A stretch of DNA of 42,405 nucleotides from a virus, in the IMG/VR virus record IMGVR_UViG_3300034066_002438, positions 1 to 42,405 of that record; one strand, 5' to 3'. How positions within the stretch are numbered: position 1 is the stretch's first letter; each line of letters starts with the position of its first letter. The position numbers and the translations under genes are program-made. This document shows, in pieces, positions 2,143-41,882 of this stretch. A model generated the notes under the pieces. That model was given only the letters and a program-made list of their open reading frames with translations. It ran no database searches and was not told the origin of the DNA.

Positions 2143-2165
2143 TAGACAATAACGCCCAAAGCAGA
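2143..2165 (+). promoter_or_regulatory. CGCYCAA late-type promoter motif, scaffold gene
   Basis: GTTAGACAATAACGCCCAAAGC, core CGCCC at 2153-2157, 46 bases before the ATG at 2199. One of 15 copies in the window; the ACAATAACGCCC stretch is shared with the copies at 20260 and 29114. Confidence 0.7.
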
Positions 2166-2198
2166 AAATGTAAACCCAAGTGTACAATTAAAAGAGAT

Positions 2199-2816
2199 AT
2201 GACACCGGAAGAAATTAAACAATTATTAGAGGAATCGCAACAGGCGTTTCTAAACCAACTACAAGGGGAATTGGGAACGCTAAAGGCAGGCATCTTAAGC
2301 GAGGTAGACCGAAAAAACAGTGGATTGGCGAGTAGTCTACAAAAATCCTGGGATAAAAGAACCACAAAAGCACCCGAACCTGAGCCAGAATTAGAAGTGG
2401 AAGTGGAGACACCCAAACAGAAACTAAGTCTTCAGGCTCTACAGAAACAGATTGAAGATTTGAAGGAACAGTCAAAGGAAAAAGACAGAAAAATAGTTGC
2501 TAAAGAACTAGAAAACATCTTAAACTCAACCATATCCAAATTTAAGCCCCTAGACTTAGGAATTGCGACCAAAGCCTTTAAGCTACAGTACGGGGATAAC
2601 TTAGTTTACGAAGATGGTGTAGCTTTTGTCAAAAATGGGGATACTGTGGAAAGTGTGGACGAGGCGTTAGGAAAATTCCTAGAAACTGATTTCGGTAAAA
2701 GTCTATTACCCCCGACATCCAAAGCTAGGGGTGCTGGGTTAAAACCCCAAAACAGTAGCCCTGCCCCCACAGAGGGGAAACGGGACATTCTGGAAGATTT
2801 GTTTATTGAAGATTAA
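2199..2816 (+). CDS. Probable capsid scaffolding protein
   Basis: A 205-residue, strongly charged protein. Residues 1-50 and 70-115 are helical and coiled-coil-like (EEIKQLLEESQQAFLNQLQG; LQALQKQIEDLKEQ), separated by an acidic linker rich in PEPE/EVEVE. A short folded segment around 125-165 (LVYEDGVAFVKNGDTVESVD) is followed by a Pro-rich stretch and an acidic tail ending DILEDLFIED. Size, charge, coiled coil and position upstream of the major capsid gene match phage scaffolding proteins, which fill the procapsid and are later lost. No protease motif is visible. Between it and the capsid gene lie a minus-strand gene and an IS607-type element. The call rests on composition and context, not on sequence similarity. 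Confidence 0.55.
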   Translation: MTPEEIKQLLEESQQAFLNQLQGELGTLKAGILSEVDRKNSGLASSLQKSWDKRTTKAPEPEPELEVEVETPKQKLSLQALQKQIEDLKEQSKEKDRKIVAKELENILNSTISKFKPLDLGIATKAFKLQYGDNLVYEDGVAFVKNGDTVESVDEALGKFLETDFGKSLLPPTSKARGAGLKPQNSSPAPTEGKRDILEDLFIED

Positions 2817-2825
2817 GTTAAGGTT

Positions 2826-2849
2826 AAGAGGGTTCTGCTTTAGACCCCT
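2826..2849. terminator. Hairpin between convergent genes
   Basis: AGAGGG...CCCTCT lies between the 3' ends of the plus-strand scaffold gene (2816) and the minus-strand gene at 2855. The loop is about 12 bases and no clear U-tract follows on either strand, so terminator function is only suggested by position. Confidence 0.3.
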
Positions 2850-2854
2850 CTCCC

Positions 2855-3172
2855 CTATCCCAAATTAACCCAAACGAGTCCATCATGGGTAGTCAGGCAG
2901 TATAGAGCCTCGACTACCTTAATTAGTTTTAAAGTCAGAAACGGGTTAAGTTCGGGTAGTTTAGAAAGAGCTAGTAGGTCACGAATGATACCATCAAAAG
3001 CATTGCAACGGATAACAGAAAGACTAACACAGATAGGGTTGTTATAGTCAGAAGAACCTAGTAGGGCAAGGCGTTCAGCCAATTCATAGGGGGCGGAGTC
3101 GAGACCAGAGATAAGGAAAGAAATATTGCAATGGGTCTCAAACTTTTCCAATTCCAACTGAAATATACGCAT
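2855..3172 (-). CDS. Hypothetical protein, 105 residues
   Basis: A small protein (MRIFQLELEKFETHCNISF...) with several Leu-rich helical stretches, including DGIIRDLLALSKLPELN and LTLKLIKVVEALYCL, and three cysteines. I do not recognise a family. It carries a good copy of the CGCYCAA motif 35 bases before its ATG, so it is probably expressed with the virion genes although it runs opposite to its neighbours. The location between scaffold and capsid genes suggests a head-related or inserted accessory gene, but no function can be given. Confidence 0.6.
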   Translation of the reverse strand: MRIFQLELEKFETHCNISFLISGLDSAPYELAERLALLGSSDYNNPICVSLSVIRCNAFDGIIRDLLALSKLPELNPFLTLKLIKVVEALYCLTTHDGLVWVNLG

Positions 3173-3191
3173 AAGACAACCTACTAGATTT

Positions 3192-3218
3192 AGACATAGT
3201 TTGAGCGTCGTCGGTTAC
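3192..3218 (-). promoter_or_regulatory. CGCYCAA late-type promoter motif, 105-residue gene
   Basis: On the minus strand, GACGACGCTCAAACTATG with core CGCTC at 3207-3203, 35 bases before the ATG at 3172. CGCTCAAACTA is shared with the copies at 6921, 17970 and 31026. Confidence 0.65.
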
Positions 3219-3224
3219 TAAAAC

Positions 3225-3240: not shown

Positions 3241-3259
3241 ATGTAAGGGTAGTAACTCC

Positions 3260-4690
3260 CTATTGGGGTAGCTCAGTTAAGAATTTTATTAGGATTCCTC
3301 TGGCTCCATTTAAATCTCTGTCTAAACTTTCGTTACTCTGAGATTTGATTACTTTCCTCCCACCTAGATTAGCTATTATTTCCCCTGTCCATGATACGGT
3401 TTTGGAGGTATAAGCCTCAGAAACTATTATTAGTTTTTTACCAAATTTATTGGCTTTGAACTTTAATAATTCCTTAAACTCATAATGTCCAAAATTTAAC
3501 ATCGAACGGGTAGTAGATTTATTGATTTTTCTGCCTTTCTTTTTGACCATTTCACTGGTGTTAAAGCAGGGTAGAAGGATTACATCAAAGTTATCTACTA
3601 AAAATCTGCTAATTTTGTGGTGGAGTTCTTTCCTCAGATTTCTTACCTTTAATGTGGTTCGTTGTTGCCACATTCTTAGATAATCAATCCGACTTTGGTT
3701 TTTGGTTTTAGCTATTTTAGATTGGATTTTGTCTGCTTTATGACAGAGTTTAGCCAATCTCTTCAGGGCTTCTTCACCAAATTTACCAAAAACTCCATTA
3801 GACGAAAAAATAGTTTGGAAAGTTCTAACACCAGGGTCTAATGCTACAATCTTTAGGTCTTGGTTTTCGACTTCTGGATTATTAGCAATATCTTCAGTAT
3901 AAATTAGGTAGAACAATCCCCCAGTAGTTGTGAGGGTTAGACCATCAAAACTACCCCTTGTGTCTGATTTTAGGGGGGTTTCTAGTTTTAGGTTTCGGGG
4001 GGCTAACACTCCCTTAGCTGAGAGTATTTCCTTTTTTAGGTTGATAGTTTGTCGGGGCTTTTTTCTAGATTTGAATTTTAACTCAAACCTTTCAACTAAC
4101 CCCGCTTTTAATTGGGCAAACCCTACTTGTTGGGCATTGATAGCTTCGGTGATAGCCTCCTTTACTGTATTTATGTTTATGCAATTGGTTAACCAAGTGT
4201 GTTTCTCCAACCAAAATTGAAAGAATGTGTCACGGATGTCATAGCTTGACAAACCTTTTCTTTCTCTCTTAGTCTTTAAATCACAATTAGCCCCAATTTT
4301 ACCGTTTATCAGCAAATCTACAGTTTTATTGTAAACAAACCGATATTGAGAGATTAGCTCATTCAGTAGATTTTGTTGAGTTTTGTCGGGGTAAAGTCTT
4401 ATCTTCCTCGATATTTTTGTTGTTTTTTCTAAGTCCGTAGACTCTGCAACTGAAAATATGGAGGATTGATAGTAAGTAGGGGGTAAGTTCTTGTTCGGGA
4501 CTTGTTTGAGTATTGTTGAGAACCACGATTGTTCCACCGTTCTTGAGGAAAAGGTATTGGAACAATTCAAATCCGAATCGGCAGAGTCTATCTCGGTGGG
4601 AGATAGCAAGAGTGAACTAATCTCCTGAGAGTAATCTGTCCAATAGGGTTTGAATACCTTTTCTTTTGAAGTTAAGTCCAGAACCGACAT
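3260..4690 (-). CDS. tnpB: TnpB RNA-guided nuclease, IS607-associated
   Basis: A 476-residue TnpB-family protein. The canonical part starts near residue 92 (KISRKIRLYPDKTQQNLLNE) and continues to the RuvC-like nuclease: Asp in VALDPGVRTF, Glu in IIVSEAYTSKT, Asp in SLDRDLNGARG, so the catalytic triad is intact. The Cys4 zinc finger usual between the second and third RuvC motifs is absent (TSKTVSWTGE has no CxxC). Residues 1 to about 90 are encoded by the same DNA as the tnpA remnant in another frame. The ATG at 4690 is supported by GGAG ten bases upstream. TnpB proteins are nucleases guided by an RNA from the element's right end, so an omega-RNA may overlap the gene's 3' end. Transcription probably comes from the TTGACA promoter at 4779-4807. 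Confidence 0.85.
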   Translation of the reverse strand: MSVLDLTSKEKVFKPYWTDYSQEISSLLLSPTEIDSADSDLNCSNTFSSRTVEQSWFSTILKQVPNKNLPPTYYQSSIFSVAESTDLEKTTKISRKIRLYPDKTQQNLLNELISQYRFVYNKTVDLLINGKIGANCDLKTKRERKGLSSYDIRDTFFQFWLEKHTWLTNCININTVKEAITEAINAQQVGFAQLKAGLVERFELKFKSRKKPRQTINLKKEILSAKGVLAPRNLKLETPLKSDTRGSFDGLTLTTTGGLFYLIYTEDIANNPEVENQDLKIVALDPGVRTFQTIFSSNGVFGKFGEEALKRLAKLCHKADKIQSKIAKTKNQSRIDYLRMWQQRTTLKVRNLRKELHHKISRFLVDNFDVILLPCFNTSEMVKKKGRKINKSTTRSMLNFGHYEFKELLKFKANKFGKKLIIVSEAYTSKTVSWTGEIIANLGGRKVIKSQSNESLDRDLNGARGILIKFLTELPQ

Positions 4691-4799
4691 CTGTAATAAT
4701 CTCCGAATCGGGGTAAACTGATTTCAAGAAATCGACCTGTCTAGCCAAATCAGCAGACTGTTTTCTTGAACTAACTTCATTATAGCTGATAACTAATGG
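4359..4799 (-). pseudogene. tnpA: IS607-type serine recombinase TnpA, truncated, with an in-frame stop
   Basis: Reading the minus strand from 4799 gives an IS607 resolvase core: ISYNEVSSRKQSADLARQ (catalytic Ser in VSS), then SEIITDVGSGLNFKRKGIQ, and after a TAG at 4617-4619 the same frame continues HRDRLCRFGFELFQYL and LLSILHIFSCRVYGLRK to a stop at 4359. The expected sequence across the stop is LLxGDxxTLxIxHRDRLCRFG, so one codon became TAG. The frame has no start codon: a TAA lies 15 bases before the first aligned codon, and the usual N-terminal helix-turn-helix is missing. The remnant is therefore non-functional unless the stop is read through and an unusual start is used. Its DNA doubles as the N-terminal coding part of tnpB in another frame. 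Confidence 0.85.
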
Positions 4800-4807
4800 T
4801 TTGTCAA
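4779..4807 (-). promoter_or_regulatory. Perfect sigma-70-type promoter driving tnpB
   Basis: On the minus strand, TTGACA (4807-4802), 17-base spacer, TATAAT (4784-4779): both boxes exact, ideal spacing. It begins TTGACAAACC like the other early-type phage promoters here (9990-10019, 39914-39943, 40804-40833). The -10 box lies inside the degenerate tnpA frame, so the promoter spans the truncation point. Confidence 0.8.
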
Positions 4808-4841: not shown

Positions 4842-4864
4842 GGGGGGTACGCCCAATGCTATTT
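4842..4864 (+). promoter_or_regulatory. CGCYCAA late-type promoter motif, capsid gene
   Basis: GTACGCCCAATGCTATTTATG, core CGCCC at 4850-4854. It is 110 bases before the capsid ATG at 4960, the only copy outside the usual 30-46 base range, implying a leader of about 100 bases for the most abundant virion protein. Confidence 0.55.
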
Positions 4865-4959
4865 ATGTATGGATACTACGGCCAGCCTAAAAAATCGTAG
4901 AAACCCTGTGTGGGATAAAACACAAAAGAATCTACTGAAAATAATAGGAAAATTAGAAA

Positions 4960-6006
4960 ATGGCAAAGCTTAATTTAGCAGTAGTCAACACGATTTTTTC
5001 GGAATTGTTGACCAAAGAGGTAAACCGTGAAGCAACCTTCTTGTCGTTGCTGACGAAGTTACCCGAACGTAAGTCCAATATCCAGTGGTCTGTAGGAGTT
5101 GGTGGAACGCAAGCAACGGGAGTAGCAATTACTGGTTCAGCACCTGCGGCCAGCCAAGACGTAACTATTCCGGCACAGTTACCCATCAATAGTTCTTCGT
5201 TACAATCTACTTTCACCTTGAACTTGAAAGAGATTGAGGAAGCTAAAGAAATGGTTTCCAATGCAGAATTACGTCAGTTGCTGTCTGCACAAATGCGTAA
5301 TGCAGTAGACGAACAAGCTACTACCTTAAACCGTAAATTATACAATGGAACTGGTGCGATTTCTGATGGAGGAATCATCGGTCTATCCATTGCGGCTGGT
5401 ACTGGAGATTATGCGGGTATTCCTTCAGCGACCTACCCTTTATGGCAAGGACAGGTCGTAGATTGCTGGGATGCTGGAGCGGCCGCAACCGACAAACGCC
5501 AAGCCTTAAAAACCGACTTTATGCTGGAATTAGACCGTAAAATCCGCTACCGTCCTGGTCGGTATGACCTAATCCTAACTACCCCTAAAGTCGTTGAACA
5601 ATACAAGAAAGTCTTTGAAGCCAATCGTAGCTTCCAAATCATGACTTTTGACGGCAACCGAGTTCCTTTGGTGGACTTAGGATTCAACGTGGCTGGTTAC
5701 ATGGGAACCCCAATCATCGATGATGTGTATTGTAACCGTACCCGTACTGCGGCTGAATCTGCCATTACCACTGCTCTCGGTACTGATGTTGACGAAGGTG
5801 TAATGTATTTCTTACGTCGTGAAGACTTAACGTTCTATTCCGCACCCGTACAGAACTCGTTTTCGGCTAACGGTGTTTATACCTTAATGCGTCAACTGGC
5901 TCAAACTAGCTTGTATGTGGACAACTTCGTAGTTGGTTGTATTGCCCAGTTGCAATTAGCCACTCGGAAAAACGTTGGAGTTATCCGTAATATTAAAGTC
6001 GCCTAA
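4960..6006 (+). CDS. Major capsid protein, HK97-fold type
   Basis: A 348-residue protein forming the capsid shell. The N-terminal helix-rich arm (NTIFSELLTKEVNREATFLSLL) is followed by the segment IQWSVGVGGTQATGVAITGS and a long helix (LKEIEEAKEMVSNAELRQLL). A P/A-domain-like region contains YDLILTTPKVVEQYKKVFEA and VAGYMGTPIIDDVY, a pattern typical of phage capsid proteins: a statement about plate reading, then 'GTPIIDD'. The C-terminal part has LRREDLTFYSAPVQNSF and ends with a positively charged strand. Length is normal for the fold, and no N-terminal scaffold or protease domain is fused. Its own strong terminator follows at 6026-6052, giving a monocistronic unit with a long leader, as suits very high expression. 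Confidence 0.85.
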   Translation: MAKLNLAVVNTIFSELLTKEVNREATFLSLLTKLPERKSNIQWSVGVGGTQATGVAITGSAPAASQDVTIPAQLPINSSSLQSTFTLNLKEIEEAKEMVSNAELRQLLSAQMRNAVDEQATTLNRKLYNGTGAISDGGIIGLSIAAGTGDYAGIPSATYPLWQGQVVDCWDAGAAATDKRQALKTDFMLELDRKIRYRPGRYDLILTTPKVVEQYKKVFEANRSFQIMTFDGNRVPLVDLGFNVAGYMGTPIIDDVYCNRTRTAAESAITTALGTDVDEGVMYFLRREDLTFYSAPVQNSFSANGVYTLMRQLAQTSLYVDNFVVGCIAQLQLATRKNVGVIRNIKVA

Positions 6007-6052: not shown

Positions 6053-6157
6053 GTCCTTACCCCACGCCTAAGTGTACGGGAATCCCTACTGAAAGACCGT
6101 AGATAATGCTGGAAAAATTGGCATATAATGGAAGGGAACATACATTATAGGTCAAAT

Positions 6158-6910: not shown

Positions 6911-6936
6911 AAAACCACAACGCTCAAACTAAATAA
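6911..6936 (+). promoter_or_regulatory. CGCYCAA late-type promoter motif, 118-residue gene
   Basis: CCACAACGCTCAAACTAAAT, core CGCTC at 6921-6925, 37 bases before the ATG at 6958. Confidence 0.7.
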
Positions 6937-6957
6937 AACACCTGCCAAGAGATAAAA

Positions 6958-7314
6958 ATGCTGTTCACACCAGATGAAATATCTAGAATTAAAATAGCAC
7001 TTGGGTATGAAGAATTTCCTAAGTATGAAGCTGATGTGCAGTTCATGCTAGAAGTGATTGAAGACCAAGTGCGCTATGAAAGAATCTTATTTTTACTGGA
7101 AAAAGTGGAAGAAATAGATAGTAAAATACAACAATATGTAGAGAAACTCTATGTAGAACAGGTAGAGGGTATAACTTTGAACTATGAAAAAGTGGTACTG
7201 GGATTGAAAAAAGAAGGTCTGCGGAGACTAAAAGAATTGTCTTGGCAGACCAACTTAGATATAAGAAACTCCCCGTTTAAAGGTAATGACGGGTTTAGCT
7301 TTGTCGCCTATTGA
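6958..7314 (+). CDS. Hypothetical small virion-class protein (possible neck protein)
   Basis: A 118-residue, mostly helical acidic protein: MLFTPDEISRIKIALGYEEF, then two long helices (VQFMLEVIEDQVRYERILFLLEKVEEIDSKI). I do not recognise a family. The N-terminal pattern and the gene's place just downstream of the capsid gene are reminiscent of small head-completion or connector proteins, but this is weak. It has its own CGCYCAA motif. Its 3' end overlaps by 7 bases with the convergent thyX gene, with no terminator visible between them. Confidence 0.55.
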   Translation: MLFTPDEISRIKIALGYEEFPKYEADVQFMLEVIEDQVRYERILFLLEKVEEIDSKIQQYVEKLYVEQVEGITLNYEKVVLGLKKEGLRRLKELSWQTNLDIRNSPFKGNDGFSFVAY

Positions 7315-8264
7315 TGAGTATCTCGGTCAGAATCAAAAAAGTCCTTTGCTTCTAAATCAGAGTTAAATGGCATAACCCAATGGGTAGTTACTTGGCGAAT
7401 TTCAGTCCCATTAAGAATCCTGGTATCTTTTTCCATAGCATAGTCACCAGACTCACCTGTAAAAAGTTTACGGGCAGGAACCCAACCAATAAACCCGCCA
7501 CACATCACAGATGCGTCGATGGCTACGGCAGTATGCTCTAAAGCTGACCAATGCTTTGAGCTAACTAAACGTATAAATAGTTTAACGTCTTTTTCCACAT
7601 CCATATTCCCTTCGTGGTTGAGGTAAGACACTCTCGCACAACGAGAGGCTGACAGAGCAATGAGTAAAAGAGTATTACCTTTGTACAGTTCTCTTTCTTC
7701 CCTGGTTACATAGGGCAGATGTAAACCACCATCTGATATGATATAAGCAGAACATTTGTGGTAAGCCTCAAGCATCAAGCGGGCTACCTTTCTAATCTCT
7801 GGCTGGGCTTTTTCGGAAGTACGAAGTTCAAAAAAGTTGAACCATTGAGTGCCGGTCAGCACCACATCCACCATTTGAAAAGGCTCAGTAAGTCGGTTCA
7901 CAATTTCTTTATGAACCCCAAGCAGGTTCAATAAATTAGCCCAAAACCGTTGGGAGTGCATGGAGCAGAACCATACAAGGTCAGCTAATTTAGCCTTTAG
8001 ACCCGACAGGGGCTTACCAGCTTGCATTCCTGACTGATTCGTACCCCATTGGTCAGGGTGATAGGGATTCTCTACTAATTTTCGGTCTTTTTTCTTAATC
8101 GGAACAGCCCGATTCGACTCGGTATTAGAGGACAAAATACGGTGTTTATTGAGTTGAGCTAAGACAAATCGGGGAATACGAATTTGAAAAGTGGTAATAG
8201 TGTCGCCTGTGATGGAATTGACACTTTGTTCGATGACCTTAGCGTGGTATTGGGTAGGTTTCAA
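7308..8264 (-). CDS. thyX: Flavin-dependent thymidylate synthase ThyX
   Basis: A 318-residue ThyX. The enzyme makes dTMP from dUMP using methylene-tetrahydrofolate and reduced FAD. The ThyX motif is present at residues 40-52 as KHRxxSSNTESNR (first Arg of RHR replaced by Lys). The nucleotide-binding segment WFNFFELRTSEKAQPEIRKVA matches the family's LRxxxxAQxEIR. A further block SASRCARVSY and C-terminal SALEHTAVAIDAS...GFIGW resemble the longer phage forms; bacterial ThyX is usually 220-250 residues. The start is TTG at 8264, supported by AGGAG eight bases upstream. It overlaps the stop codon of the sigma-factor gene (TTGA), so the two are translationally coupled and made early from the same promoter. 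Confidence 0.9.
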   Translation of the reverse strand: MKPTQYHAKVIEQSVNSITGDTITTFQIRIPRFVLAQLNKHRILSSNTESNRAVPIKKKDRKLVENPYHPDQWGTNQSGMQAGKPLSGLKAKLADLVWFCSMHSQRFWANLLNLLGVHKEIVNRLTEPFQMVDVVLTGTQWFNFFELRTSEKAQPEIRKVARLMLEAYHKCSAYIISDGGLHLPYVTREERELYKGNTLLLIALSASRCARVSYLNHEGNMDVEKDVKLFIRLVSSKHWSALEHTAVAIDASVMCGGFIGWVPARKLFTGESGDYAMEKDTRILNGTEIRQVTTHWVMPFNSDLEAKDFFDSDRDTHQ

Positions 8265-8752
8265 GAATTTGCTCCTAATTTCTTAATTTTTCTGACTTCT
8301 GACTTATAAGTTCGCAGGGTAAGACCCAGAGTTTTAGCTATTACCTCTTGGGTAAGACCCATTAGACGTTTGCGGACAATTTGCTTTTGGAGGGGGGTGA
8401 GTTTAGACCAGAACAGGTTCAGGGTCATTTGGTATTCAGTGGAATCGACTCGGAATGCCATATTGTCTAGGGGAAAATCTCGAAGTTGGCATTCCATGAC
8501 ATAGGTTTTGTGCCGAATAAGGCGGAACCTTTTGCGAATATCCAACCAGCAATAGCTGGTGAGCGTTCCTTTGTTGGGGTTCCAAGTCTTAAGTTTTTCT
8601 AGAACCAGACAAAGACCCTCCTGAAAATAATCCTCTCCTTTGACTGACGTATCACGCATAGCCCGACGGATAGCGGGGATTTGGGATTTAACCAAATTTA
8701 GTTTAGACGTTTCACAGGCTTGTTGTTCGATGGTTAAAGGTAGGTATTCCAT
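8261..8752 (-). CDS. Phage-encoded sigma factor, sigma-70 family
   Basis: A 163-residue protein with the two-domain layout of small alternative sigma factors. Residues about 30-80 resemble region 2: VKGEDYFQEGLCLVLEKLKTWNP, then GTLTSYCWLDIRKRFRLIRH, the 'F.sya...i...i' helix that binds core RNA polymerase and the -10 element. Residues about 113-160 resemble region 4: LTPLQKQIVRKRLMGLTQEV followed by IAKTLGLTLRTYKSEVRKIKK, a clear helix-turn-helix. It is first in an operon with thyX and has TTGACA promoters upstream, so it should be made early. Expected role: redirect host RNA polymerase to late genes, probably at the CGCYCAA motif. That partnership is my inference; a transcription-unrelated HTH protein is less likely given both regions. 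Confidence 0.75.
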   Translation of the reverse strand: MEYLPLTIEQQACETSKLNLVKSQIPAIRRAMRDTSVKGEDYFQEGLCLVLEKLKTWNPNKGTLTSYCWLDIRKRFRLIRHKTYVMECQLRDFPLDNMAFRVDSTEYQMTLNLFWSKLTPLQKQIVRKRLMGLTQEVIAKTLGLTLRTYKSEVRKIKKLGANS

Positions 8753-8810: not shown

Positions 8811-8816
8811 AGTATA
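8811..8816 (-). promoter_or_regulatory. Possible second -10 box before the sigma gene
   Basis: TATACT on the minus strand about 60 bases before the start codon. The matching -35 region (TTTTAA at 8839-8834) is poor, so this is a weak candidate. If used, the leader would start close to the 39-bp tape-measure copy. Confidence 0.3.
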
Positions 8817-8838
8817 GTACCATTTTGACCGTTTTAAA

Positions 8839-9989: not shown

Positions 9990-10019
9990 AGTATAGCAGG
10001 GTTATCTAGGGTTTGTCAA
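9990..10019 (-). promoter_or_regulatory. Sigma-70-type promoter, early pair 9958/9565
   Basis: On the minus strand, TTGACA (10019-10014), 18-base spacer, TATACT (9995-9990). It begins TTGACAAACCC like the promoters at 39914 and 40804. Confidence 0.75.
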
Positions 10020-10026: not shown

Positions 10027-10053
10027 GAGAAAAAATCGCCCAAAGCTAAGTTA
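10027..10053 (+). promoter_or_regulatory. CGCYCAA late-type promoter motif, tape measure gene
   Basis: AAATCGCCCAAAGCTAAGTTAG, core CGCCC at 10037-10041, 42 bases before the ATG at 10079. Confidence 0.7.
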
Positions 10054-10078
10054 GACCCCGCTTGGAGTATAACTGAGG

Positions 10079-17959: not shown

Positions 17960-17984
17960 CAGACAATACCGCTCAAACTAAAAG
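17960..17984 (+). promoter_or_regulatory. CGCYCAA late-type promoter motif, first M-like tail gene
   Basis: AGACAATACCGCTCAAACTA, core CGCTC at 17970-17974, 34 bases before the ATG at 18004. Confidence 0.7.
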
Positions 17985-18003
17985 AAACCTGCCTTAATTT
18001 CGG

Positions 18004-19392: not shown

Positions 19393-19415
19393 GCAAGAAC
19401 GCCCAAACTAAGTCT
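19390..19415 (+). promoter_or_regulatory. CGCYCAA late-type promoter motif, 19436/19861 pair
   Basis: AGAACGCCCAAACTAAGTCTAG, core CGCCC at 19400-19404, 36 bases before the ATG at 19436. Confidence 0.7.
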
Positions 19416-19435
19416 AGTAAACCCGATAAAAACCT

Positions 19436-20253: not shown

Positions 20254-20272
20254 CAATAACGCCCAGACTATA
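20248..20272 (+). promoter_or_regulatory. CGCYCAA late-type promoter motif, tail-tip operon
   Basis: GTGACAATAACGCCCAGACTA, core CGCCC at 20260-20264. It lies 35 bases before the ATG at 20295 and only 23 before a GTG at 20283, favouring the ATG as start. It heads the coupled genes 20295-29106. Confidence 0.65.
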
Positions 20273-20294
20273 GAAAAGTTGAGTGGTAAAACTG

Positions 20295-29106: not shown

Positions 29107-29128
29107 ACAATAACGCCCAATCTGATGA
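29104..29128 (+). promoter_or_regulatory. CGCYCAA late-type promoter motif, neck operon
   Basis: TTAGACAATAACGCCCAATCTG, core CGCCC at 29114-29118, 30 bases before the ATG at 29144. A strong Shine-Dalgarno AGGAGG follows at 29131-29138. Confidence 0.7.
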
Positions 29129-29143
29129 CAGCAGGAGGTTTTT

Positions 29144-30271: not shown

Positions 30272-30297
30272 ATTCCCTAACGCCCAATTTCATACTT
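30271..30297 (+). promoter_or_regulatory. CGCYCAA late-type promoter motif, major tail protein gene
   Basis: TTCCCTAACGCCCAATTTCATAC, core CGCCC at 30281-30285, 44 bases before the ATG at 30325. Confidence 0.65.
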
Positions 30298-30324
30298 GAA
30301 ATCTCTATATTTGAGGCTACTTTA

Positions 30325-31016: not shown

Positions 31017-31042
31017 TTTCAATAACGCTCAAACTAAAATAG
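31016..31042 (+). promoter_or_regulatory. CGCYCAA late-type promoter motif, 23-residue gene
   Basis: TTTCAATAACGCTCAAACTA, core CGCTC at 31026-31030, 41 bases before the ATG at 31067. Lies directly after the preceding terminator, so the next small gene has its own transcription unit. Confidence 0.7.
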
Positions 31043-31066
31043 GAAACTTTTATATTTTAACTTGGC

Positions 31067-31138
31067 ATGAAAAAAAGTTCTGGTTGTAAGAAACCCAAAA
31101 TGCCTAAGCCCAAACCCCTAAAACCTAAAAAGGCTTAG
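31067..31138 (+). CDS. 23-residue Lys/Pro-rich micro-protein
   Basis: MKKSSGCKKPKMPKPKPLKP followed by KKA and a stop. Eleven lysines and five to six prolines, one cysteine, no acidic residue. Evidence that it is a gene: a good CGCYCAA motif 41 bases upstream, placed between two strong terminators (30990-31016 and 31148-31170), so this unit would otherwise transcribe nothing. A ribosome site is not obvious (AGGAAAC is 20 bases upstream). It could bind DNA or another virion protein. Lys/Pro repeats also occur near the end of the tape measure. Role unknown. Confidence 0.6.
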   Translation: MKKSSGCKKPKMPKPKPLKPKKA

Positions 31139-34229: not shown

Positions 34230-34252
34230 TAAAAGTTTTAACCCAAGCTCTA

Positions 34253-34277
34253 ATTTGGGCTTGGGCGATGGGGCTAG
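34253..34277 (-). promoter_or_regulatory. CGCYCAA late-type promoter motif, 859-residue gene
   Basis: On the minus strand, CCCCATCGCCCAAGCCCAAA with core CGCCC at 34267-34263, 38 bases before the ATG at 34229. Confidence 0.6.
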
Positions 34278-36430: not shown

Positions 36431-36455
36431 AGGGTGGGCGGGGTTAGGTCTTCTA

Positions 36456-36480
36456 CTTAGGTCATGAGCGGCCTAACCCC
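36456..36480 (-). promoter_or_regulatory. CGCYCAA late-type promoter motif, portal gene
   Basis: On the minus strand, TTAGGCCGCTCATGACCTAAG with core CGCTC at 36470-36466, 40 bases before the ATG at 36430. It is one of the weaker matches (CGCTCATGACCTAAG). Confidence 0.5.
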
Positions 36481-36487: not shown

Positions 36488-39121
36488 TTAATAGCCAGAA
36501 TTATAATTCCCGTAGAGACTATCATCTTGGGGGACACTGGGTATTAGGGTATTTGCACCCATACTATCGATGATATTCTCAATATTCCGATGCTCCAAAG
36601 TAGCCAAAACGTAACGCAAAGCATCGCAAAAATGGTCTCTTTGCCCTTCAGCCACTTTCTCGGTAACATTCCCTTCTTTAGACTCTCGGTGATATGCAGT
36701 CATGTCCTCAAAAACCCTTTTACAGGATTTGGCAATAAAAAGTTTATCTTGGTGTAATAAAGTGTTAACCACCCCATTACCTTCTGATACCCTATTATAG
36801 CCCTCCATTAACTTGGGAACACCCGCTTTTCTCATGGTTAAAATTCTTCCTGGTTGTGACGGGTCAGCATATCCACGGTTGACACCATGCGTTCTGGCTA
36901 ACTCAATGGCTTTCTCATTGTGGACTCGTTGTTCAATGGCCGCTTTAGGGTTGGGATTTTCCCAACAATCAATCACAAAATAAGCGGCTCCTCGTCTTCC
37001 CACCACTACTAGGGCAGGATTCACATCTCCCCAGTCCACTCCGATATATACTTGGTCAAATTTTGTCGGTAAATCATCATCATCCAGTAAGTGTCTCTTA
37101 TCTAAATCTGAGAATATCTGACCATCAAAAGATTCCCAAGATGCTAAAAATTCTTGTCTAAAGATTTTTTCGGGTAATGACTCTTTGGTTCTTTGGATTT
37201 CATCAAGGGGAATAAAGGGATTATCATAAACTGTCTTTAAAAAACTAGCCCAATTAGGAACTTCACCACCTTGTAGGTAGAGACTATGGAAAAATGTACC
37301 TGCCCCTTTGGGCGTATTATGACTGATAAACCCGTTAGACCAGAAAGAATGGGTTTCTGGAATGGTGAAATCAAAAGTCTGACATTCTGATTGTTCAAGG
37401 GTTTTGATTGTATCCCAGTAATAGTCTTGATTTTTTAAGGGTTCACCGGGGTTAAACCCGTTTAAAACCAGCCCATCCCCTCCAAGACACGCCACTACCC
37501 CTAAATTAGTCAGTAGTAATTGCATCTCTCTTAAAAGCTCTTTTGACGGGCTTCTGAGGACTATTCTTTTTTGGTCATCCCTCAAACCCGCCCCTACTAT
37601 GTATCCCTTTATAAAAGACACAGCCCACTCTCTTTTTCCGTTCCACAACCAAGAGGGTATCACCTGATTATTAGGGAAAAACTTTCGCATACCTAAGTGC
37701 TTTAACAGGTTCAGGAATTTCCCTAAATCATCGCTATTATGAAAAGCACTGGCAAAATTCCCTTGTGCTATGCCCCACCCTAAGAAATGGGCTAACTGCT
37801 CAGTCATCCCACCTGAAATACTTAAGCCGTTTATCTCAGTCCCAGTCCCTTCAAAATCAGCTAGGGGGTCAATGTTCCCCCAGACTTCCATCCCATAGTC
37901 TATGGCTACCTTATCCCCAACTTCCAGTTCACCCGTTTTCTTCCATCCATCTTTGGTTAAAATAGGGTGGTTCAGGGAGGATTCTAAAGTAAACCCATAG
38001 TTGGTTGAGATTTTTCTCGTTTCCACGATACCATTGTTAAAGAAGCCATCTGCTTTGTGGAACTCTCTACCTATTCCATAGATGTCCTCAGAAATGGGTA
38101 AATACTCTTTCTCTTTTGTATCGGAGTCAAAATCTTTAATTTCCTTGATTCCAGTGGGAGTTAGTACTTTTGTATTAGGATTAACACAGCCAATAATTAA
38201 AGATGTACTATTTTTAGTATCAACTAAAGCAGGGCGAATCACTTCCGTCCATACAATGGGTTTTATATCTTGCATCTCATCTAATCCAGCAAAATATATC
38301 TTCAACCCCCGCATATTATCGCCGTTATCTTCATTGGCTCCTCTGAGGATGATGTCTGGTTTATTTCCTTTAAAAACGATTCTGCATTCAGACTTAAAAA
38401 TTCTTTTAACTGCTGGGTGTCCATCTAGAATATTTACAAGTGGTTCCCAGTGGATTTGTTTAGCCTGTTTTAAGCTAGGCATAACGAGCAAAACGACGGG
38501 GGGAGAAGCTTTATCATAGTTGCCGTTGTAATTAATAGCCCTTTCGATTAAAGTAGTCAATAATAGCCGGGAGTTATGGGTGGGGATATTACTCTTACTA
38601 CATAGGAAAATCCCTCCTTCTACCTGAATACACTTAGTTCGATGTCTTCCAACAGGGATTACATCGGCTATAAAAAAGCTTTCCCACGGATGCAAAATTT
38701 TACGAGGAACAGATAAATTAAGTTTTTTACTTCCCTTTTGAATGTTTTGATGGTAATAGAATATTTCCTCAGTAGTCCATGTGTTAGACTCTAACTTACG
38801 GTTTAGCTCCAAAACCCACTCATGGTTTTTCCCTGCTCTGATAACCTGTCCATTTTCAAAGACAATATCGTAGCAATCATCTTCAAATACCTCGGTAGCC
38901 GCTAAAACTTTTACAGGTAAACCCTGTTCATTATATACAGTGTCCCCAGTGAAAATTTCCTTAATCGGTTTATAACCATTTTTGGTCAAAATAGGGGTGT
39001 TTTCTTCTAAATTTTTCCCAAATCTCCTCGATGAGACCAAAACCTTGAATCTGGCAGGGTTTCCGAATACTTCTTGTTGTCCAGGGTGTAAATATAATTT
39101 TAATTTTCCAGGTTTTGCCAT
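36488..39121 (-). CDS. terL: Large terminase subunit with two inteins
   Basis: An 877-residue precursor (ATG at 39121; a TTG at 39136 in the same frame is less likely because the promoter motif is 38 bases from the ATG). After removal of two inteins the mature enzyme would be about 439 residues, normal for TerL. The ATPase has Walker A rebuilt as SSRRFGK-S after splicing, and Walker B FAGLDE. Motif III is restored as LIIG-TPKG. The C-terminal nuclease shows its acidic residues in VYIGVDWGDVNP, RGYADPSQPG and QRDHFCDALRYV. TerL cuts concatemeric DNA and pumps it through the portal. Intein 1 occupies precursor residues 37-183 and intein 2 residues 312-602 (separate entries). The gene is followed by the portal gene. 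Confidence 0.92.
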   Translation of the reverse strand: MAKPGKLKLYLHPGQQEVFGNPARFKVLVSSRRFGKNLEENTPILTKNGYKPIKEIFTGDTVYNEQGLPVKVLAATEVFEDDCYDIVFENGQVIRAGKNHEWVLELNRKLESNTWTTEEIFYYHQNIQKGSKKLNLSVPRKILHPWESFFIADVIPVGRHRTKCIQVEGGIFLCSKSNIPTHNSRLLLTTLIERAINYNGNYDKASPPVVLLVMPSLKQAKQIHWEPLVNILDGHPAVKRIFKSECRIVFKGNKPDIILRGANEDNGDNMRGLKIYFAGLDEMQDIKPIVWTEVIRPALVDTKNSTSLIIGCVNPNTKVLTPTGIKEIKDFDSDTKEKEYLPISEDIYGIGREFHKADGFFNNGIVETRKISTNYGFTLESSLNHPILTKDGWKKTGELEVGDKVAIDYGMEVWGNIDPLADFEGTGTEINGLSISGGMTEQLAHFLGWGIAQGNFASAFHNSDDLGKFLNLLKHLGMRKFFPNNQVIPSWLWNGKREWAVSFIKGYIVGAGLRDDQKRIVLRSPSKELLREMQLLLTNLGVVACLGGDGLVLNGFNPGEPLKNQDYYWDTIKTLEQSECQTFDFTIPETHSFWSNGFISHNTPKGAGTFFHSLYLQGGEVPNWASFLKTVYDNPFIPLDEIQRTKESLPEKIFRQEFLASWESFDGQIFSDLDKRHLLDDDDLPTKFDQVYIGVDWGDVNPALVVVGRRGAAYFVIDCWENPNPKAAIEQRVHNEKAIELARTHGVNRGYADPSQPGRILTMRKAGVPKLMEGYNRVSEGNGVVNTLLHQDKLFIAKSCKRVFEDMTAYHRESKEGNVTEKVAEGQRDHFCDALRYVLATLEHRNIENIIDSMGANTLIPSVPQDDSLYGNYNSGY
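37316..38188 (-). other. Intein 2 in terminase, class 1, with degenerate LAGLIDADG endonuclease
   Basis: About 291 residues between LIIG and TPKG. It starts with Cys (CVNPNTKVLTPTG), has block B SSLNHPILTKDGW, block F CQTFDFTIPETHSF and ends NGFISHN followed by Thr (+1). These are the normal splicing residues (C1, His of block B, HN end, T+1). Between blocks B and F lie two LAGLIDADG-like motifs: AHFLGWGIAQGNFA and FIKGYIVGAGLRDD. The acidic catalytic residue expected in each motif is missing (Q in the first, A in the second), so the homing endonuclease is probably inactive while splicing should be possible. Confidence 0.85.
38573..39013 (-). other. Intein 1 in the Walker A motif, probable class 3 mini-intein
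   Basis: About 147 residues between RRFGK and SRLLL. The first residue is Asn (NLEENTPILTKNGY), not the usual Cys, Ser or Ala nucleophile. It shows the three class 3 marker residues: Trp at block B +2 from His (KNHEWVL, W66), Cys replacing the block F Asp (TKCIQVE, C128), and Thr in the end IPTHN (T145, then His146, Asn147), followed by Ser (+1). Class 3 inteins start splicing with the block F Cys and do not need an N-terminal nucleophile. There is no endonuclease domain between blocks B and F. Confidence 0.85.
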
Positions 39122-39144
39122 TTTCTCTACGCTCAATCGCTTCT

Positions 39145-39169
39145 GTCTTAGATTGGGCGATGGGGGCTT
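39145..39169 (-). promoter_or_regulatory. CGCYCAA late-type promoter motif, terminase gene
   Basis: On the minus strand, CCCCATCGCCCAATCTAAG with core CGCCC at 39159-39155, 38 bases before the ATG at 39121. It decides the start codon over the in-frame TTG at 39136. Confidence 0.7.
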
Positions 39170-39204: not shown

Positions 39205-39233
39205 TTGACAAACCATAAGCGGTATGTTATGCT
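39205..39233 (+). promoter_or_regulatory. Sigma-70-type promoter of the MazG-like gene
   Basis: TTGACA (39205-39210), 17-base spacer, TATGCT (39228-39233). Begins TTGACAAACC like the other early promoters. Confidence 0.65.
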
Positions 39234-39913: not shown

Positions 39914-39943
39914 TTGACAAACCCATAAAAACTAAGTTATACT
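39914..39943 (+). promoter_or_regulatory. Sigma-70-type promoter of the antirepressor-like gene at 39979
   Basis: TTGACA (39914-39919), 18-base spacer, TATACT (39938-39943). It matches the tRNA promoter at 40804-40833 at all but four positions over 30 bases (TTGACAAACCCATAA then CTAAGTTATA). Confidence 0.8.
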
Positions 39944-39978
39944 GTTAAAGTAATCAGAAAACACCAAAGAGGTATAAA

Positions 39979-40818
39979 ATGGAAACCGTTAAACCCACAA
40001 TCGTTAAAGTCCCCGAATTAGATATGGAATTGCAATTCTTCGTCAGTGCGGACGGGAAAACCTGTGGTATGAGTCAATCTGCGTTAGCCCGATTATGCGG
40101 GGTTCAACGTGGGAGTATGTTCTCAGAGGGTCGGGTTATTGCAAATCTTTCCCAAGAAACCCCCGAATCAAAAACAGTGCCAGAATGCTTGAAACCCTTC
40201 CAGGGTAAGGTTTTCTCCCAGACGCTTAAAGGGGATTGCGACAGTGTTAATCTTGCGAACATTGTCAATAGCAAAGCGGCGGCCGCTATTATTTCCTACT
40301 ACGGCTTTGAATCAAAAGCCGCTAATCCAGTGGCTCGAAAAAGTCTTTTAGCCTTTGCTTCAATTGGAATAGACACTTGGATTAGGTCGGTCACGGGTTT
40401 TGTTTCCGACTCAGACCGTCTGGCTAACATTGAAATGGTCATGACTTGCCTAGTTGGGAAAGTTGACAAGTTGAGCGAAGAAATTCAGGACTTCAAAAAA
40501 GTAGTCACGGTCTATCCAAAAATCGATGGGTGGAAAAATGGACTAAAGGGTTTGCCCTTTTATCTACCAGAAGATTTCTCCCTAAAGGATTATTTAGAAG
40601 CAAAGGCTTTAGACTTCACTAACACAGAGTTCCGCAAAATCCGCCTTCAAGTTGCTCAAGCATGGGAAACCTTAATGGGTGAAAAACCCCCCAAACGCCA
40701 TGTCTACGGGTTAAAAAACGGTAAACGCAAACGAGTCAGCACTGAGTATTTCTACCGACGGGAAGACATCCCGATGATTGAGGAAATTCTTTCTGGTTTA
40801 GACTTGACAAACCCATAA
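39979..40818 (+). CDS. Antirepressor-like / DNA-binding regulatory protein (putative)
   Basis: A 279-residue protein. Residues 10-50 (LQFFVSADGKTCGMSQSALA, then RLCGVQRGSM) are a Bro/antirepressor-like start: a strand pair, 'MSQ', and a helix-turn-helix-like ALARLCGVQRG. A central helix NLANIVNSKAAAAIISYYGF precedes ARKSLLAFASIGIDTWIRSV, the position where Bro-type proteins often have a conserved helix. The C-terminal part (about 190-279) has YLPEDFSLKDYLEAKALDFT and a basic GLKNGKRKRVST stretch, possibly a second DNA- or RNA-binding site. It shares its layout with the gene at 1329-2030. RBS GAGG lies 8 bases upstream. Its last codons overlap the promoter of the tRNA gene. Confidence 0.55.
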   Translation: METVKPTIVKVPELDMELQFFVSADGKTCGMSQSALARLCGVQRGSMFSEGRVIANLSQETPESKTVPECLKPFQGKVFSQTLKGDCDSVNLANIVNSKAAAAIISYYGFESKAANPVARKSLLAFASIGIDTWIRSVTGFVSDSDRLANIEMVMTCLVGKVDKLSEEIQDFKKVVTVYPKIDGWKNGLKGLPFYLPEDFSLKDYLEAKALDFTNTEFRKIRLQVAQAWETLMGEKPPKRHVYGLKNGKRKRVSTEYFYRREDIPMIEEILSGLDLTNP

Positions 40819-40833
40819 CGGCTAAGTTATAAT
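40804..40833 (+). promoter_or_regulatory. Sigma-70-type promoter of the tRNA gene
   Basis: TTGACA (40804-40809), 18-base spacer, TATAAT (40828-40833). The -35 box is inside the last codons of the antirepressor-like gene (stop at 40816-40818). Confidence 0.8.
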
Positions 40834-40858
40834 AAAGAGGTCTGGAGCAAAAGACCTT

Positions 40859-40930
40859 CTGGGTTTAGCTTATCGGATAAGCACCGTCCTCATAAGACGG
40901 CATAGGTGGGTTCGACTCCCACAACCCAGA
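40859..40930 (+). tRNA. tRNA with CAT anticodon (Met, or Ile2 if lysidine-modified)
   Basis: A 72-base cloverleaf: acceptor CTGGGTT/AACCCAG with discriminator A, D-stem GCTT/AAGC with loop ATCGGAT, anticodon stem CCGTC/GACGG with loop CTCATAA (anticodon CAT), variable loop CATAG, T-stem GTGGG/CCCAC with loop TTCGACT. All stems are fully paired. The CCA end is not encoded. Position 1 is paired (C1-G72), which argues against an initiator. A CAT anticodon can be elongator Met or Ile for ATA codons after lysidine modification; sequence alone does not decide. Own promoter at 40804-40833 and terminator at 40954-40976. Confidence 0.92.
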
Positions 40931-40953
40931 TTTGTTCCTTGTTTGGTTTATTT

Positions 40954-40976
40954 AACCCCCTAGAGTATAGGGGGTT
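40954..40976 (+). terminator. Intrinsic terminator after the tRNA gene
   Basis: AACCCCCTA gagta TAGGGGGTT followed by a T-run, a perfect 9-bp stem. Confidence 0.85.
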
Positions 40977-40988
40977 TTTTCTTGCCTG

Positions 40989-41831
40989 TTAATAGTTACT
41001 GAACCATATATCCTTAAATTCTTCTAAAGCCTTTTCTAATTGTTCCCACACTCCTAAGACCGACTCTCCCCCTTGTTCCCACAGTTCTAAGACAGACTCT
41101 CCTCCTTGTTCTGGAATTACTCTAGACTTAAAGGGGGGGGTTTTTCGTCCGTTCCAGTTAACCCCTAGATTTCCATGTTCTGACTCTAAATGGATTCCTA
41201 CAGCATTAGCGATTAATTTGCGCTTCTGTCCTCCCCATCGCATAGCAAATAGCATATCGGCTCTAGCGGCATTTTGATGGACTGTAGGGTAGGAATTTTC
41301 ACTATTGGGAGCGTACCAAGCTTGAAAGAATCCAATGGGGACATAATACCCATCCTTATAGACACGGGGCATAATCGGGAAACGGTCTAATCTGAGCCAG
41401 ACTTCCTGTTCATAAAATACTTTAGGGTCGCTAACATAATCTGCCCATTTATCAAAACCTATTGCACTAACTCGGTCAATACCGTATATACAATCGGTTT
41501 CTATAAGCTCTTTTCGGATATGATTCATTGAGCGAGGTGGTAGTACAATATCAGAGTCAAAGTGGACTAGCCAACCGCTTTTAGATAAGACATCAGACTT
41601 CAAAAATTCATCGATTGCCTGGGATTTGCCGAAAGTTTGACCCTCAGCAAAAAAAGCTTCAGTAGCATAACACTGAACATGGTGAAAGGAACATACCTCT
41701 TGGGTTTTCAGGTCTTGGGGTGTAGTGAGGACTACCAGATTATCGAACTGCGGACGATTGAAAAGTAAAGACCAAGACAAAAAATCCGAATAACCAACAC
41801 AAGTGGTAAAAGCTTCAACGGGGGAGTACAT
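40989..41831 (-). CDS. Glycosyltransferase, GT-A type (putative)
   Basis: A 280-residue protein with the pattern of phage-encoded GT-A glycosyltransferases: DNLVVLTTPQDLKTQEVC, GKSQAIDEFL, then LVHFDSDIVLPPRSMNHI, where DSD is the metal- and sugar-nucleotide-binding DXD motif, followed by DCIYGIDRVSAIGFDKWADY. Near the C-terminus, EQGGESVLELW is repeated as EQGGESVLGVW (33 bp per unit at 41040-41105). It could modify virion proteins, phage DNA or host surface sugars; acceptor cannot be read. Its CGCYCAA motif puts it in the late group, favouring a virion- or wall-related target. It is convergent with the tRNA gene. Confidence 0.75.
   Translation of the reverse strand: MYSPVEAFTTCVGYSDFLSWSLLFNRPQFDNLVVLTTPQDLKTQEVCSFHHVQCYATEAFFAEGQTFGKSQAIDEFLKSDVLSKSGWLVHFDSDIVLPPRSMNHIRKELIETDCIYGIDRVSAIGFDKWADYVSDPKVFYEQEVWLRLDRFPIMPRVYKDGYYVPIGFFQAWYAPNSENSYPTVHQNAARADMLFAMRWGGQKRKLIANAVGIHLESEHGNLGVNWNGRKTPPFKSRVIPEQGGESVLELWEQGGESVLGVWEQLEKALEEFKDIWFSNY
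41040..41105. repeat. 33-bp tandem duplication in the glycosyltransferase gene
   Basis: TTGTTCCCACACTCCTAAGA... (41040-41072) is repeated with a few changes at 41073-41105, and a third partial unit (TTGTT) follows. In frame, it adds 11 residues (EQGGESVLxxW). Confidence 0.9.
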
Positions 41832-41857
41832 ATTTTCTCAGTGGGCAGGGGGATTCA

Positions 41858-41882
41858 AAAATATTTTGGGCGGTATCGTTTA
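41858..41882 (-). promoter_or_regulatory. CGCYCAA late-type promoter motif, glycosyltransferase gene
   Basis: On the minus strand, ACGATACCGCCCAAAATATT with core CGCCC at 41872-41868, 41 bases before the ATG at 41831. Confidence 0.65.

Follow-up and report, generated by a model that had tools for sequence, protein, structure and literature searches.

CGCYCA as a probable single-element late promoter of Mic1-like Microcystis siphophages, and a candidate phage sigma factor to read it

The window analysed here, a stretch of viral DNA of 42,405 nucleotides taken at its full length, is a fragment of a genome related to Microcystis phage Mic1. It carries genes for scaffold, major capsid, tape measure, tail, tail tube, portal and terminase proteins, each with the word CGCYCAA or a close variant on its upstream side (Table 1). 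Fifteen such sites had been listed in a preliminary description, and their coordinates and strands are all correct, the orientation being in every case that of the gene. Thirteen have the exact core, and the two deviants are identical in the aligned relatives, L041 and L053 for the site at 20260(+) and L009 and L014 for that at 36470(-); CGCYCAT also precedes the terminase and tail tube genes of Mic1. As had been claimed, the core is 30-46 nt from the start codon at 14 of the 15 sites and farther away at the capsid copy, a count that assumes ATG 39121 for the terminase and ATG 20295 over longer ORFs. The spacing of the scaffold site varies, from 46 nt in the window and Mic1 to 56-58 nt in the relatives G013, G016 and G018. 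The window also holds a TnpB element, which terminates a few bases upstream of the core at 3207(-), and in different strains TnpB and a 60-nt block are found directly upstream of different late promoters.

Table 1. Predicted late promoters, host-type promoters and candidate sigma gene of the window. Late-promoter intervals run from the first C of the core to the predicted start base (+17).
Feature	Positions	Strand	Gene	Core to start codon (nt)	Mic1 counterpart
Predicted late promoter, core CGCCCAA	2153..2170	+	scaffold gene 2199-2816	46	gp42, core likewise at -46
Predicted late promoter	3190..3207	-	105-aa ORF 2855-3172	35	
Predicted late promoter	4850..4867	+	major capsid gene 4960-6006	110	104 nt
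Predicted late promoter	6921..6938	+	118-aa gene 6958-7314	37	gp38, also 37 nt
Predicted late promoter	10037..10054	+	tape measure gene 10079-17902	42	gp35, CGCCCAC at -53
Predicted late promoter	17970..17987	+	tail gene 18004-19392	34	
Predicted late promoter	19400..19417	+	gene 19436-19858	36	gp33 orthologue, 48 nt
Predicted late promoter, deviant CGCCCAG	20260..20277	+	gene from ATG 20295	35	gp31 orthologue
Predicted late promoter	29114..29131	+	gene 29144-29575	30	gp23 orthologue, 37 nt
Predicted late promoter	30281..30298	+	tail tube gene 30325-30963	44	gp20, CGCTCAT, 50 nt
Predicted late promoter	31026..31043	+	23-aa ORF 31067-31138	41	
Predicted late promoter	34250..34267	-	859-aa gene 31650-34229	38	gp3 orthologue
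Predicted late promoter, deviant CGCTCAT	36453..36470	-	portal gene 34547-36430	40	portal, CGCCCAA at 33 nt
Predicted late promoter	39142..39159	-	terminase large subunit gene, ATG 39121	38	gp1, CGCCCAT at 49 nt
Predicted late promoter	41855..41872	-	280-aa gene 40989-41831	41	
Host-type promoter TTGACA-17-TATAAT, 12/12	4779..4807	-	TnpB gene		
Host-type promoter, 10/12	39205..39233	+	MazG gene		
Host-type promoter, 11/12	39914..39943	+	ORF 39979-40818		
Host-type promoter, 12/12	40804..40833	+	directly before tRNA-Met 40858-40931		
Host-type promoter, 11/12	9990..10019	-	ORF 9593-9958; back to back with the tape-measure late promoter		
Weak host-type candidate TTTAAA-16-TATACT, 9/12	8811..8838	-	candidate sigma gene		
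Predicted sigma-70-family protein, ECF-like build	8261..8752	-	163 aa, regions 2 and 4		gp36 orthologue

The word is far more frequent in the window than in shuffled sequence, with 23 exact matches to CGCYCAA against a mean of 4.57 (sd 2.18, maximum 11) in 100 shuffles. Of these, 12 are followed at 25-60 nt by a same-strand start, against 0.35 expected (binomial 2e-16), for 36 hand-chosen starts that include the 23-aa ORF at 31067 on account of its motif (11 without it); at that distance none has the opposite orientation. The 10 exact matches outside the list (677, 9412, 25924, 26359, 27561, 30534, 37308, 39130, 40471 and 41528) fall mostly within ORFs and show no sign of function.

The units behind the motif had been described as nearly all virion genes. 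This was borne out for 11 of the 15, which lead with orthologues of Mic1 packaging, head or tail genes or regions (gp1, 2, 3, 20, 23, 31, 33, 34, 35, 40 and 42, assigned as such in the Mic1 papers), and not for the gp38 orthologue and the 105-aa, 23-aa and 280-aa ORFs, which have no known function; homology of the 105-aa ORF to the Mic1 cement protein gp47 was considered and dropped, as the two gave no alignment. For Mic1 itself, infection RNA-seq and gene expression classes have been published (PMC11237433), and the raw reads are public (SRR27490991-SRR27491041). Using the classes as the text of that paper names them (23 early genes, 18 of 31 middle and 12 of 44 late) together with 10 late genes added from annotation (gp2, 3, 4, 20, 27, 28, 34, 35, 40 and 47), we found CGCYCAW before 9 of the 22 late genes and before none of the 23 early or the 18 named middle ones, a test that covers 63 of the 98 genes, the 35 unclassed ones including 9 with the motif. 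Among genes that lead a unit, the motif preceded 9 of 14 late ones and none of the 35 in the early and middle classes (Fisher 1e-6), the late leads that lack it being gp13, 14, 80, 81 and 35. These classes supersede our earlier virion and non-virion labels, under which the motif preceded 8 of 15 versus 1 of 23 genes; the single non-virion match, phoH, is a late gene in PMC11237433. Nine Mic1 sites run along the gene and one against it. A few cores stand in front of genes that have no role in the virion, for example a DUF4417 nuclease-like gene in the relative G006, at which the core is not shared by Mic1 gp79.

The motif is conserved in related phages of 60-67% portal identity. Across aligned orthologues of the two clades (16 and 9 loci), identity is about 0.6 before the first C and 1.0 from there on, in alignments made gap-free on the core, a procedure that inflates identity downstream and depresses it upstream, and at loci picked for having the core, which makes the 1.00 within it partly a matter of construction. 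In the window's relatives the downstream side stays at 0.95-0.99 to +24; orthologous loci were found through the downstream 160 bases in the window group and picked from the motif listing in the Mic1 group. Host-type promoters of the same phages served as a control, their loci likewise found through the downstream 160 bases, and showed no step in identity, conservation extending through the -35 box (9 loci). Upstream sequence is also conserved at some late loci, namely the terminase (0.97), 19400 and 20260 (0.90) and the Mic1 cement gene (0.90). We considered and rejected mobile elements inserting specifically at CGC: since many upstream differences resemble the usual drift and indels, and the distance to the core is not the same for the two TnpB insertions, the edge is read as the limit of selection rather than as an insertion target.

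The consensus is CGCYCA followed by A, rarely by T, G or C, with weak downstream preferences (counted from the first C) for a pyrimidine at +9, A or T at +11 and +15, and a purine at +13 and +17, the last present at 33 of 36 sites. The fuller form given in the preliminary description was overstated, for GACAATAA is complete at 3 of the 15 sites and stands before none of 13 aligned Mic1 sites, and its downstream C8, T9 and A11 are preferences only; what is general is the core, the longer GACAATAA...CTAA being partly lineage-specific. Likewise, GACAATAACGCYCAANCTAA was rejected as a general promoter, its upstream part being common only in the window's lineage and missing or exchanged for other sequence at many of the orthologous loci. 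AGACAA is present at 9 of 23 loci of that lineage, and GACAATAACGC occurs once in the Mic1 genome, at none of the aligned sites.

Host-type promoters form the contrasting class. Counting those with a score of at least 10/12, Mic1 has them at 14 of its 23 early genes, at 5 of the 18 middle genes and at 2 of the 22 late ones; the repeated early promoters TTGACA/TGACATAAT, described for Mic1 in PMC7156551, are host-type and precede early genes. In the same phages the late motif makes up the complementary class of promoter repeats. Within positions -45..-9 of the late sites no common word exceeded 40 shuffles in either clade (23 of the 24 window-group loci were used, one being dropped). A search for words downstream of the core gave no clear excess over shuffled sequence, its level being reached in 2 of 40 and 18 of 40 shuffles. 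A terminator stem at 30990-31011 ends 14 nt before the core at 31026, and a hairpin at 41893-41912 with a T run, which the terminator listing shows for the + strand only, ends 20 nt before the core at 41872. In L033 and L042 the gap between divergent cores is 14 and 15 nt; the other two of four listed pairs are 30 nt apart. These stems and the closest divergent cores leave little room for a -35 box. With no upstream word above shuffles and a conservation edge at the first C, the earlier claim of one main element and no visible -35 box of host type stands, and we infer strongly that the late motif is a single-element promoter, with predicted start sites.

Well supported as its reading of the motif was, the preliminary description left unmentioned a candidate recognition factor inside the window, the putative sigma gene at 8261-8752, whose own promoter region has no CGCYCAA core. 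The proteins of the two clades (163 and 169 aa) carry a predicted region 2 followed by a predicted region 4, with no region 3, which is the layout of ECF-like (group 4) members of the sigma-70 family, at their usual length of about 160-190 aa. The family TIGR02937 (sigma70-ECF) spans both domains (32-158) at 1.2e-8 and 1.3e-7 in the two clades, with scores of 34.7 and 31.3 bits that lie below the cut-off of 42.9; Mic1 gp36 gives Sigma70_r2 at 27-70 (9.5e-4) and then Sigma70_r4 at 116-152 (2.4e-3), both below cut-offs. Among seven records, PF08281 was above cut-off in three, below it in three and gave no match in Mic1; in a separate search, the score fell just below cut-off. A structure model built from 7 sequences (mean pLDDT 75, pTM 0.45) matched 8b3z over 11-86 and 3vfz over 106-163 (Z 8.6, 1.7 A, 58 residues), and sigma factors made up most of the 50 matches listed. 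The best Foldseek match to this model had an E-value of 9.3e-3, none reaching E <= 0.001, and the fold of region 4 resembles response regulators as well. Since strong Foldseek matches are lacking, the model is modest and region 4 has this second likeness, the sigma assignment rests on sequence and domain order.

Sigma relatives in viral contigs occupy 9 loci, all from the two clades; in phage records they were found in Mic1 only, plus one chance-level match at E 0.9, and a pattern-limited search through 84,980 genomes of bacteria and archaea brought up 67 matching stretches, none of them confirmed. The pair of motif and sigma was found in two clades only. In two relatives without a sigma match, distant controls of 22-31% portal identity, 0 of 18 and 0 of 8 occurrences of the motif fell 15-125 nt upstream of the annotated starts tested, A-1(L) being covered in the first 50,000 of its 67,884 bases (41, then 67 of 69 listed genes, with unchanged result). 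Between the clades region 2 is conserved to 59% versus 36% for region 4, and the motif core is likewise the better conserved part. Mic1 gp36 belongs to the middle M2 cluster (PMC11237433). Judged by this company and timing, the protein of 8261-8752 (gp36 in Mic1) is probably the reader of the motif. The sigma gene had already been named in the Mic1 transcriptome paper; our literature search found no printed account of the motif or of a link between sigma and promoter.

Taken as a whole, CGCYCA is likely to be the late promoter of the Mic1-like clade of Microcystis siphophages, probably served by a phage sigma factor. The earlier reading, which took the motif for a late promoter specific to the phage and built on one main recognition element, agrees with orientation, position, conservation and confinement to late genes, and also with the scarcity of host-type promoters at late genes and the lack of a second upstream element. 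On early genes, the RNA polymerase of the host would use its main sigma and promoters resembling TTGACA/TATAAT; the phage sigma would then be made from its middle gene and would redirect the polymerase core of the host to the CGCYCA sites of packaging, head, tail and lysis genes. Because of the purine preference and the ribosome-binding site of the gene at 29144, transcription would most likely start 13-17 bases downstream of the first C, which would place the core somewhere between -17 and -7.

We consider it unlikely that the late promoter is instead read by host polymerase with a host sigma, either an alternative cyanobacterial one or the main one assisted by a phage activator bound at CGCYCAA. 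Early genes of these phages do appear to use the host polymerase, given their host-type promoters, and the phage sigma-like protein is so far a candidate reader of these sites; however, late genes rarely have host-type promoters (2 of 22), a core 30-46 nt from the start codon is close for an upstream activator site, the sequence upstream of the core is poorly conserved, and both phage clades have a sigma-like gene of their own. An element acting in the 5' leader of the RNA, whether translation enhancer or processing site, is very improbable: it would suit the nearness of the motif to the start codon and the strong downstream conservation in the window's relatives, but the distance from core to start ranges over 30-110 nt, and hairpins with T runs and opposed cores would leave a separate promoter 14-20 unconserved bases. 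Hardly to be expected is a promoter for a T7-type single-subunit phage RNA polymerase, which a compact, asymmetric single element near the presumed start might suggest, the layout of the window sites being reminiscent of T3 and T7 promoters; PF00940 was found in none of five phage records (the complete Mic1, and G000, G003, G006 and G016, possibly fragments) against 1e-109 for the T7 control, and neither the 859-aa protein nor its Mic1 orthologue has any Pfam match. A repressor or 'stoperator' site, of the kind proposed for motifs in the Nostoc phages A-1 and N-1, is just as implausible, for the word is indeed repeated, intergenic and conserved, but its orientation (12 versus 0 in the window, 9 versus 1 in Mic1) is consistent whereas that of the A-1 and N-1 motifs is not, according to PMC4916379.

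A late promoter served by a phage sigma has a parallel in phage phiEco32, whose middle and late promoters carry tAATGTAtA, are read by sigma gp36 and start 6-8 bp downstream of the element (PMC8948821). There, as proposed here, a phage sigma from a middle gene sends the host core polymerase to single-element late promoters, and early genes have host-type promoters. The two differ in that the phiEco32 word is unrelated to the GC-rich CGCYCA, that its gp36 reportedly lacks region 4 homology whereas the sigma of the window and Mic1 has a predicted region 4, and that phage and host lineages are others, function being demonstrated there and inferred here. For phage 7-11, the same account gives late promoters of the form GTAAtg-16-aCTA and a sigma, gp47, with region 4 (PMC8948821). 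Its late genes are thus served, as proposed here, by a phage sigma having region 4, but its promoters are bipartite whereas the Microcystis phage motif has no detectable upstream element. The late promoters of T4 (TATAAATA, gp55, with the sliding clamp required) resemble the motif in being a single -10-like element with no -35 box, their word being AT-rich as against the CGCYCA consensus here. Ma-LMM01 shares the host genus Microcystis and three expression classes, and PMC5780444 reports promoters resembling those of host sigma-70 in each class and no motif specific to the phage.

A tentative and somewhat doubtful proposal is that a sigma with a folded region 4 reads one GC-rich element, CGCYCA, lying in the range from -17 to -8, with no -35 contact, region 4 being off the DNA or serving another partner. 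If true, this would break the simple rule, suggested by phiEco32 and 7-11, that region 4 accompanies a two-part promoter, and the phages would, if the pairing is confirmed, offer a test case for the role of region 4 where there is no -35 box. Confirmation would also provide a small promoter and sigma pair native to a cyanobacterial virus. For a group of phages of bloom-forming Microcystis, a predicted one-element promoter and a candidate sigma make the late switch explicit. In annotation, the motif can flag likely late units of uncultured relatives, and it points to late genes of no known function, among them the window's ORFs of 105, 23 and 280 aa.

The motif with core CGCYCA(A), which the preliminary description had read as a late promoter, is almost certainly one, as argued by its confinement to late genes in the Microcystis phage Mic1, by a conservation edge at its first C and by the lack of a second upstream element. 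All 15 sites proposed earlier are present, 13 with the exact core and two in deviant form, both unaltered in aligned relatives; the finding itself was right, and only its longer consensus needs trimming. CGCYCAA occurs 23 times in the window against 4.57 expected, a fivefold excess; 12 of these exact matches lie 25-60 nt upstream of a same-direction start and none in the opposite arrangement. In the independently annotated Mic1, 9 of 24 matches are so placed (expected 0.46, p 3e-10), and one is in opposite orientation. When exact 7-mers ahead of Mic1 genes were counted without bias, CGCTCAA came seventh, after words from early-gene repeats such as TGACATA.

The window, a separate virus record of 42,405 bases, is a fragment of a relative of Mic1 (MN013189, 92.6 kb), with which it shares its tail gene order, 82% capsid identity and 67% portal identity across 86% of the portal's length. 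Near-identical relatives exist in IMG/VR (L008-L014, portal 99-100%), as does a second group (L015-L032, portal 60-66%). Terminase intein sets differ among relatives: a large intein (~313-601) is common to the window and Mic1, and a second one of Mic1 is seemingly missing in the window.

Mic1 genes have been classed by RNA-seq (Wang et al. 2024, PMC11237433), and in the parts of that paper used here the early genes are gp49-gp73 minus 61 and 67, and the late class covers genes for packaging, head, tail and lysis. At 15-125 nt upstream, CGCYCAW was found before 9 of 22 late genes, none of 23 early and none of 18 named middle genes; among unclassed genes, 9 of 35 have the motif. At the leads of transcription units the counts were 9/14 late and 0/35 early or middle (Fisher 1e-6), or 6/14 and 0/35 with strict CGCYCAA (2e-4). 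The phoH gene, with CGCCCAT upstream, was initially counted as non-virion and is listed there as late (PMC11237433), and the five late leads lacking CGCYCAW include gp35 (tape measure), with CGCCCAC at -53. Host-type promoters (TTGACA/TATAAT-like pairs with at least 10 of 12 matches) showed the reverse pattern, preceding 14/23 early, 5/18 middle and 2/22 late genes; in the window, such promoters (10-12/12) precede TnpB, MazG, the ORF at 39979-40818 and a tRNA-Met. The muramidase-type endolysin has the late motif upstream in both clades, that of the window and the Mic1-type. Mic1 gp79 (DUF4417) is without it.

We aligned orthologous loci on the core, 16 from the window's close relatives and 9 from Mic1-type phages. 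In the former, mean identity rose from 0.63 over the five bases before CGC to 1.00 over the first five of the core, remaining at 0.95-0.99 to +24 (counted from the first C), above the 0.85-0.89 found from +25; in the latter, the same step led from 0.42-0.64 over the ten preceding bases to 0.99, followed by 0.90-0.92 to +14 and ~0.8 to +29. Agreement of the upstream 20 bases varied widely by locus, from 20% at an 859-aa gene to 97% at terminase. Treated likewise and aligned on the -10, host-type promoters from these phages gave 0.81-0.96 from -30 to +29 (9 loci). Core-to-start distances are often preserved between the window and Mic1 (scaffold 46 nt in both, with 56-58 in the related records G013, G016 and G018; 118-aa gene 37 in both; capsid 110 against 104). 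Thus, at most loci, the first C is the 5' limit of the selected sequence. A near-identical 60-nt block ending ttagacaataa stands in each of two strains before a different late promoter (L037:16026, L014:13975), and upstream sequence may therefore move in blocks from one late unit to another.

In neither clade did any shared word at -45 to -9 exceed 40 shuffles; in the window's lineage, the core is adjoined by AGACAA at 9 of 23 loci. A hairpin with a T run ends 14 nt upstream of core 31026 and another 20 nt upstream of core 41872, the latter's minus-strand T run being taken from the sequence because the program lists the plus strand only; four divergent core pairs are 14 (L033), 15 (L042) and, twice, 30 nt apart. 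There is hardly room for a separate -35 box at these places. Downstream of the core, position +9 is a pyrimidine in 34 of 36 sites and +17 a purine in 33 of 36, with weaker preferences at +11, +13 and +15. At 29114 the ribosome-binding site AGGAGG starts 19 bases past the first C, so transcription should start before it; the start is predicted at +13 to +17.

The core is probably read by a phage sigma-like protein, for which the candidate is a window gene orthologous to Mic1 gp36 (42%), itself a middle gene of cluster M2 named RNA polymerase sigma-70 factor in the gene assignments of PMC11237433. The two match TIGR02937 (1.2e-8 and 1.3e-7, under the curated cut-off), and gp36 matches Sigma70_r2 (9.5e-4) then Sigma70_r4 (2.4e-3), each under cut-off; across seven records, Sigma70_r4_2 was above cut-off in three, under it in three and unmatched in Mic1. 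For the predicted fold, the closest solved structures are mostly sigma factors (by domain, 8b3z over 76 residues at 2.4 A and 3vfz over 58 at 1.7 A). With limits set from helices, identity between clades is 59% in region 2 and 36% in region 4, and the motif core does not differ between them. No CGCYCAA core precedes the sigma gene, which has a weak host-type promoter (9/12) in the window and TGCTATAAT upstream in Mic1. In two cyanophages that are more distant and gave no sigma match, 0 of 18 and 0 of 8 core occurrences lay 15-125 nt upstream of annotated starts. A search for a T7-type polymerase in five phage records, Mic1 among them, found none.

Features of the window and related records
Feature	Position (strand)	Observation
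Host-type promoter TTGCAA-17-TATAAT	663-691	CGCCCAA at 677(+) inside spacer, kept in L035 and L037; dual use possible
TnpB element	3260-4690(-)	Directly upstream of late promoter of 105-aa gene
TnpB element, same right end	L037 near 14200	Directly upstream of capsid late promoter
T5orf172/MUG113 match	6128-6835(+)	GIY-YIG-like, homing endonuclease PHROGs; between capsid gene and late promoter 6921
Sigma candidate	8261-8752(-)	
Lys/Pro-rich ORF, 23 aa	31067-31138(+)	Own late promoter; relatives conserve its leader; perhaps a tiny virion protein or a non-coding late RNA
Terminase gene	36488-39121(-)	Insertion at Walker A motif, ~residues 36-183; Mic1 without
ORF after host-type promoter	39979-40818	
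Perfect host-type promoter	40804-40833	
tRNA-Met (anticodon CAU)	40858-40931(+)	Right after the perfect promoter
DUF4417 nuclease-like gene (G006)	L038:10438-11145(-)	Motif 33 nt upstream

Of the two phage sigmas described in PMC8948821, phiEco32 gp36, without region 4 homology, uses tAATGTAtA as its single element, transcription starting 6-8 bp past it, and 7-11 gp47, with region 4, uses a bipartite promoter. The mode of action here is like that of phiEco32, but the sigma has a predicted region 4 and the word is GC-rich; therefore the window/Mic1 system is a variant and a member of neither type. For Ma-LMM01, a Microcystis phage with a transcriptome, the sections consulted describe host-type promoters only (PMC5780444), those of the Mic1 genome paper early repeated promoters only (PMC7156551), and the Mic1 transcriptome paper (PMC11237433) nowhere uses the word 'promoter' in its main text; topic queries, rather than motif letters, found no account of the late motif in the open-access literature, subscription papers being outside their scope. 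The finding gains a candidate factor, the sigma, and an expression data set able to test the late promoter.
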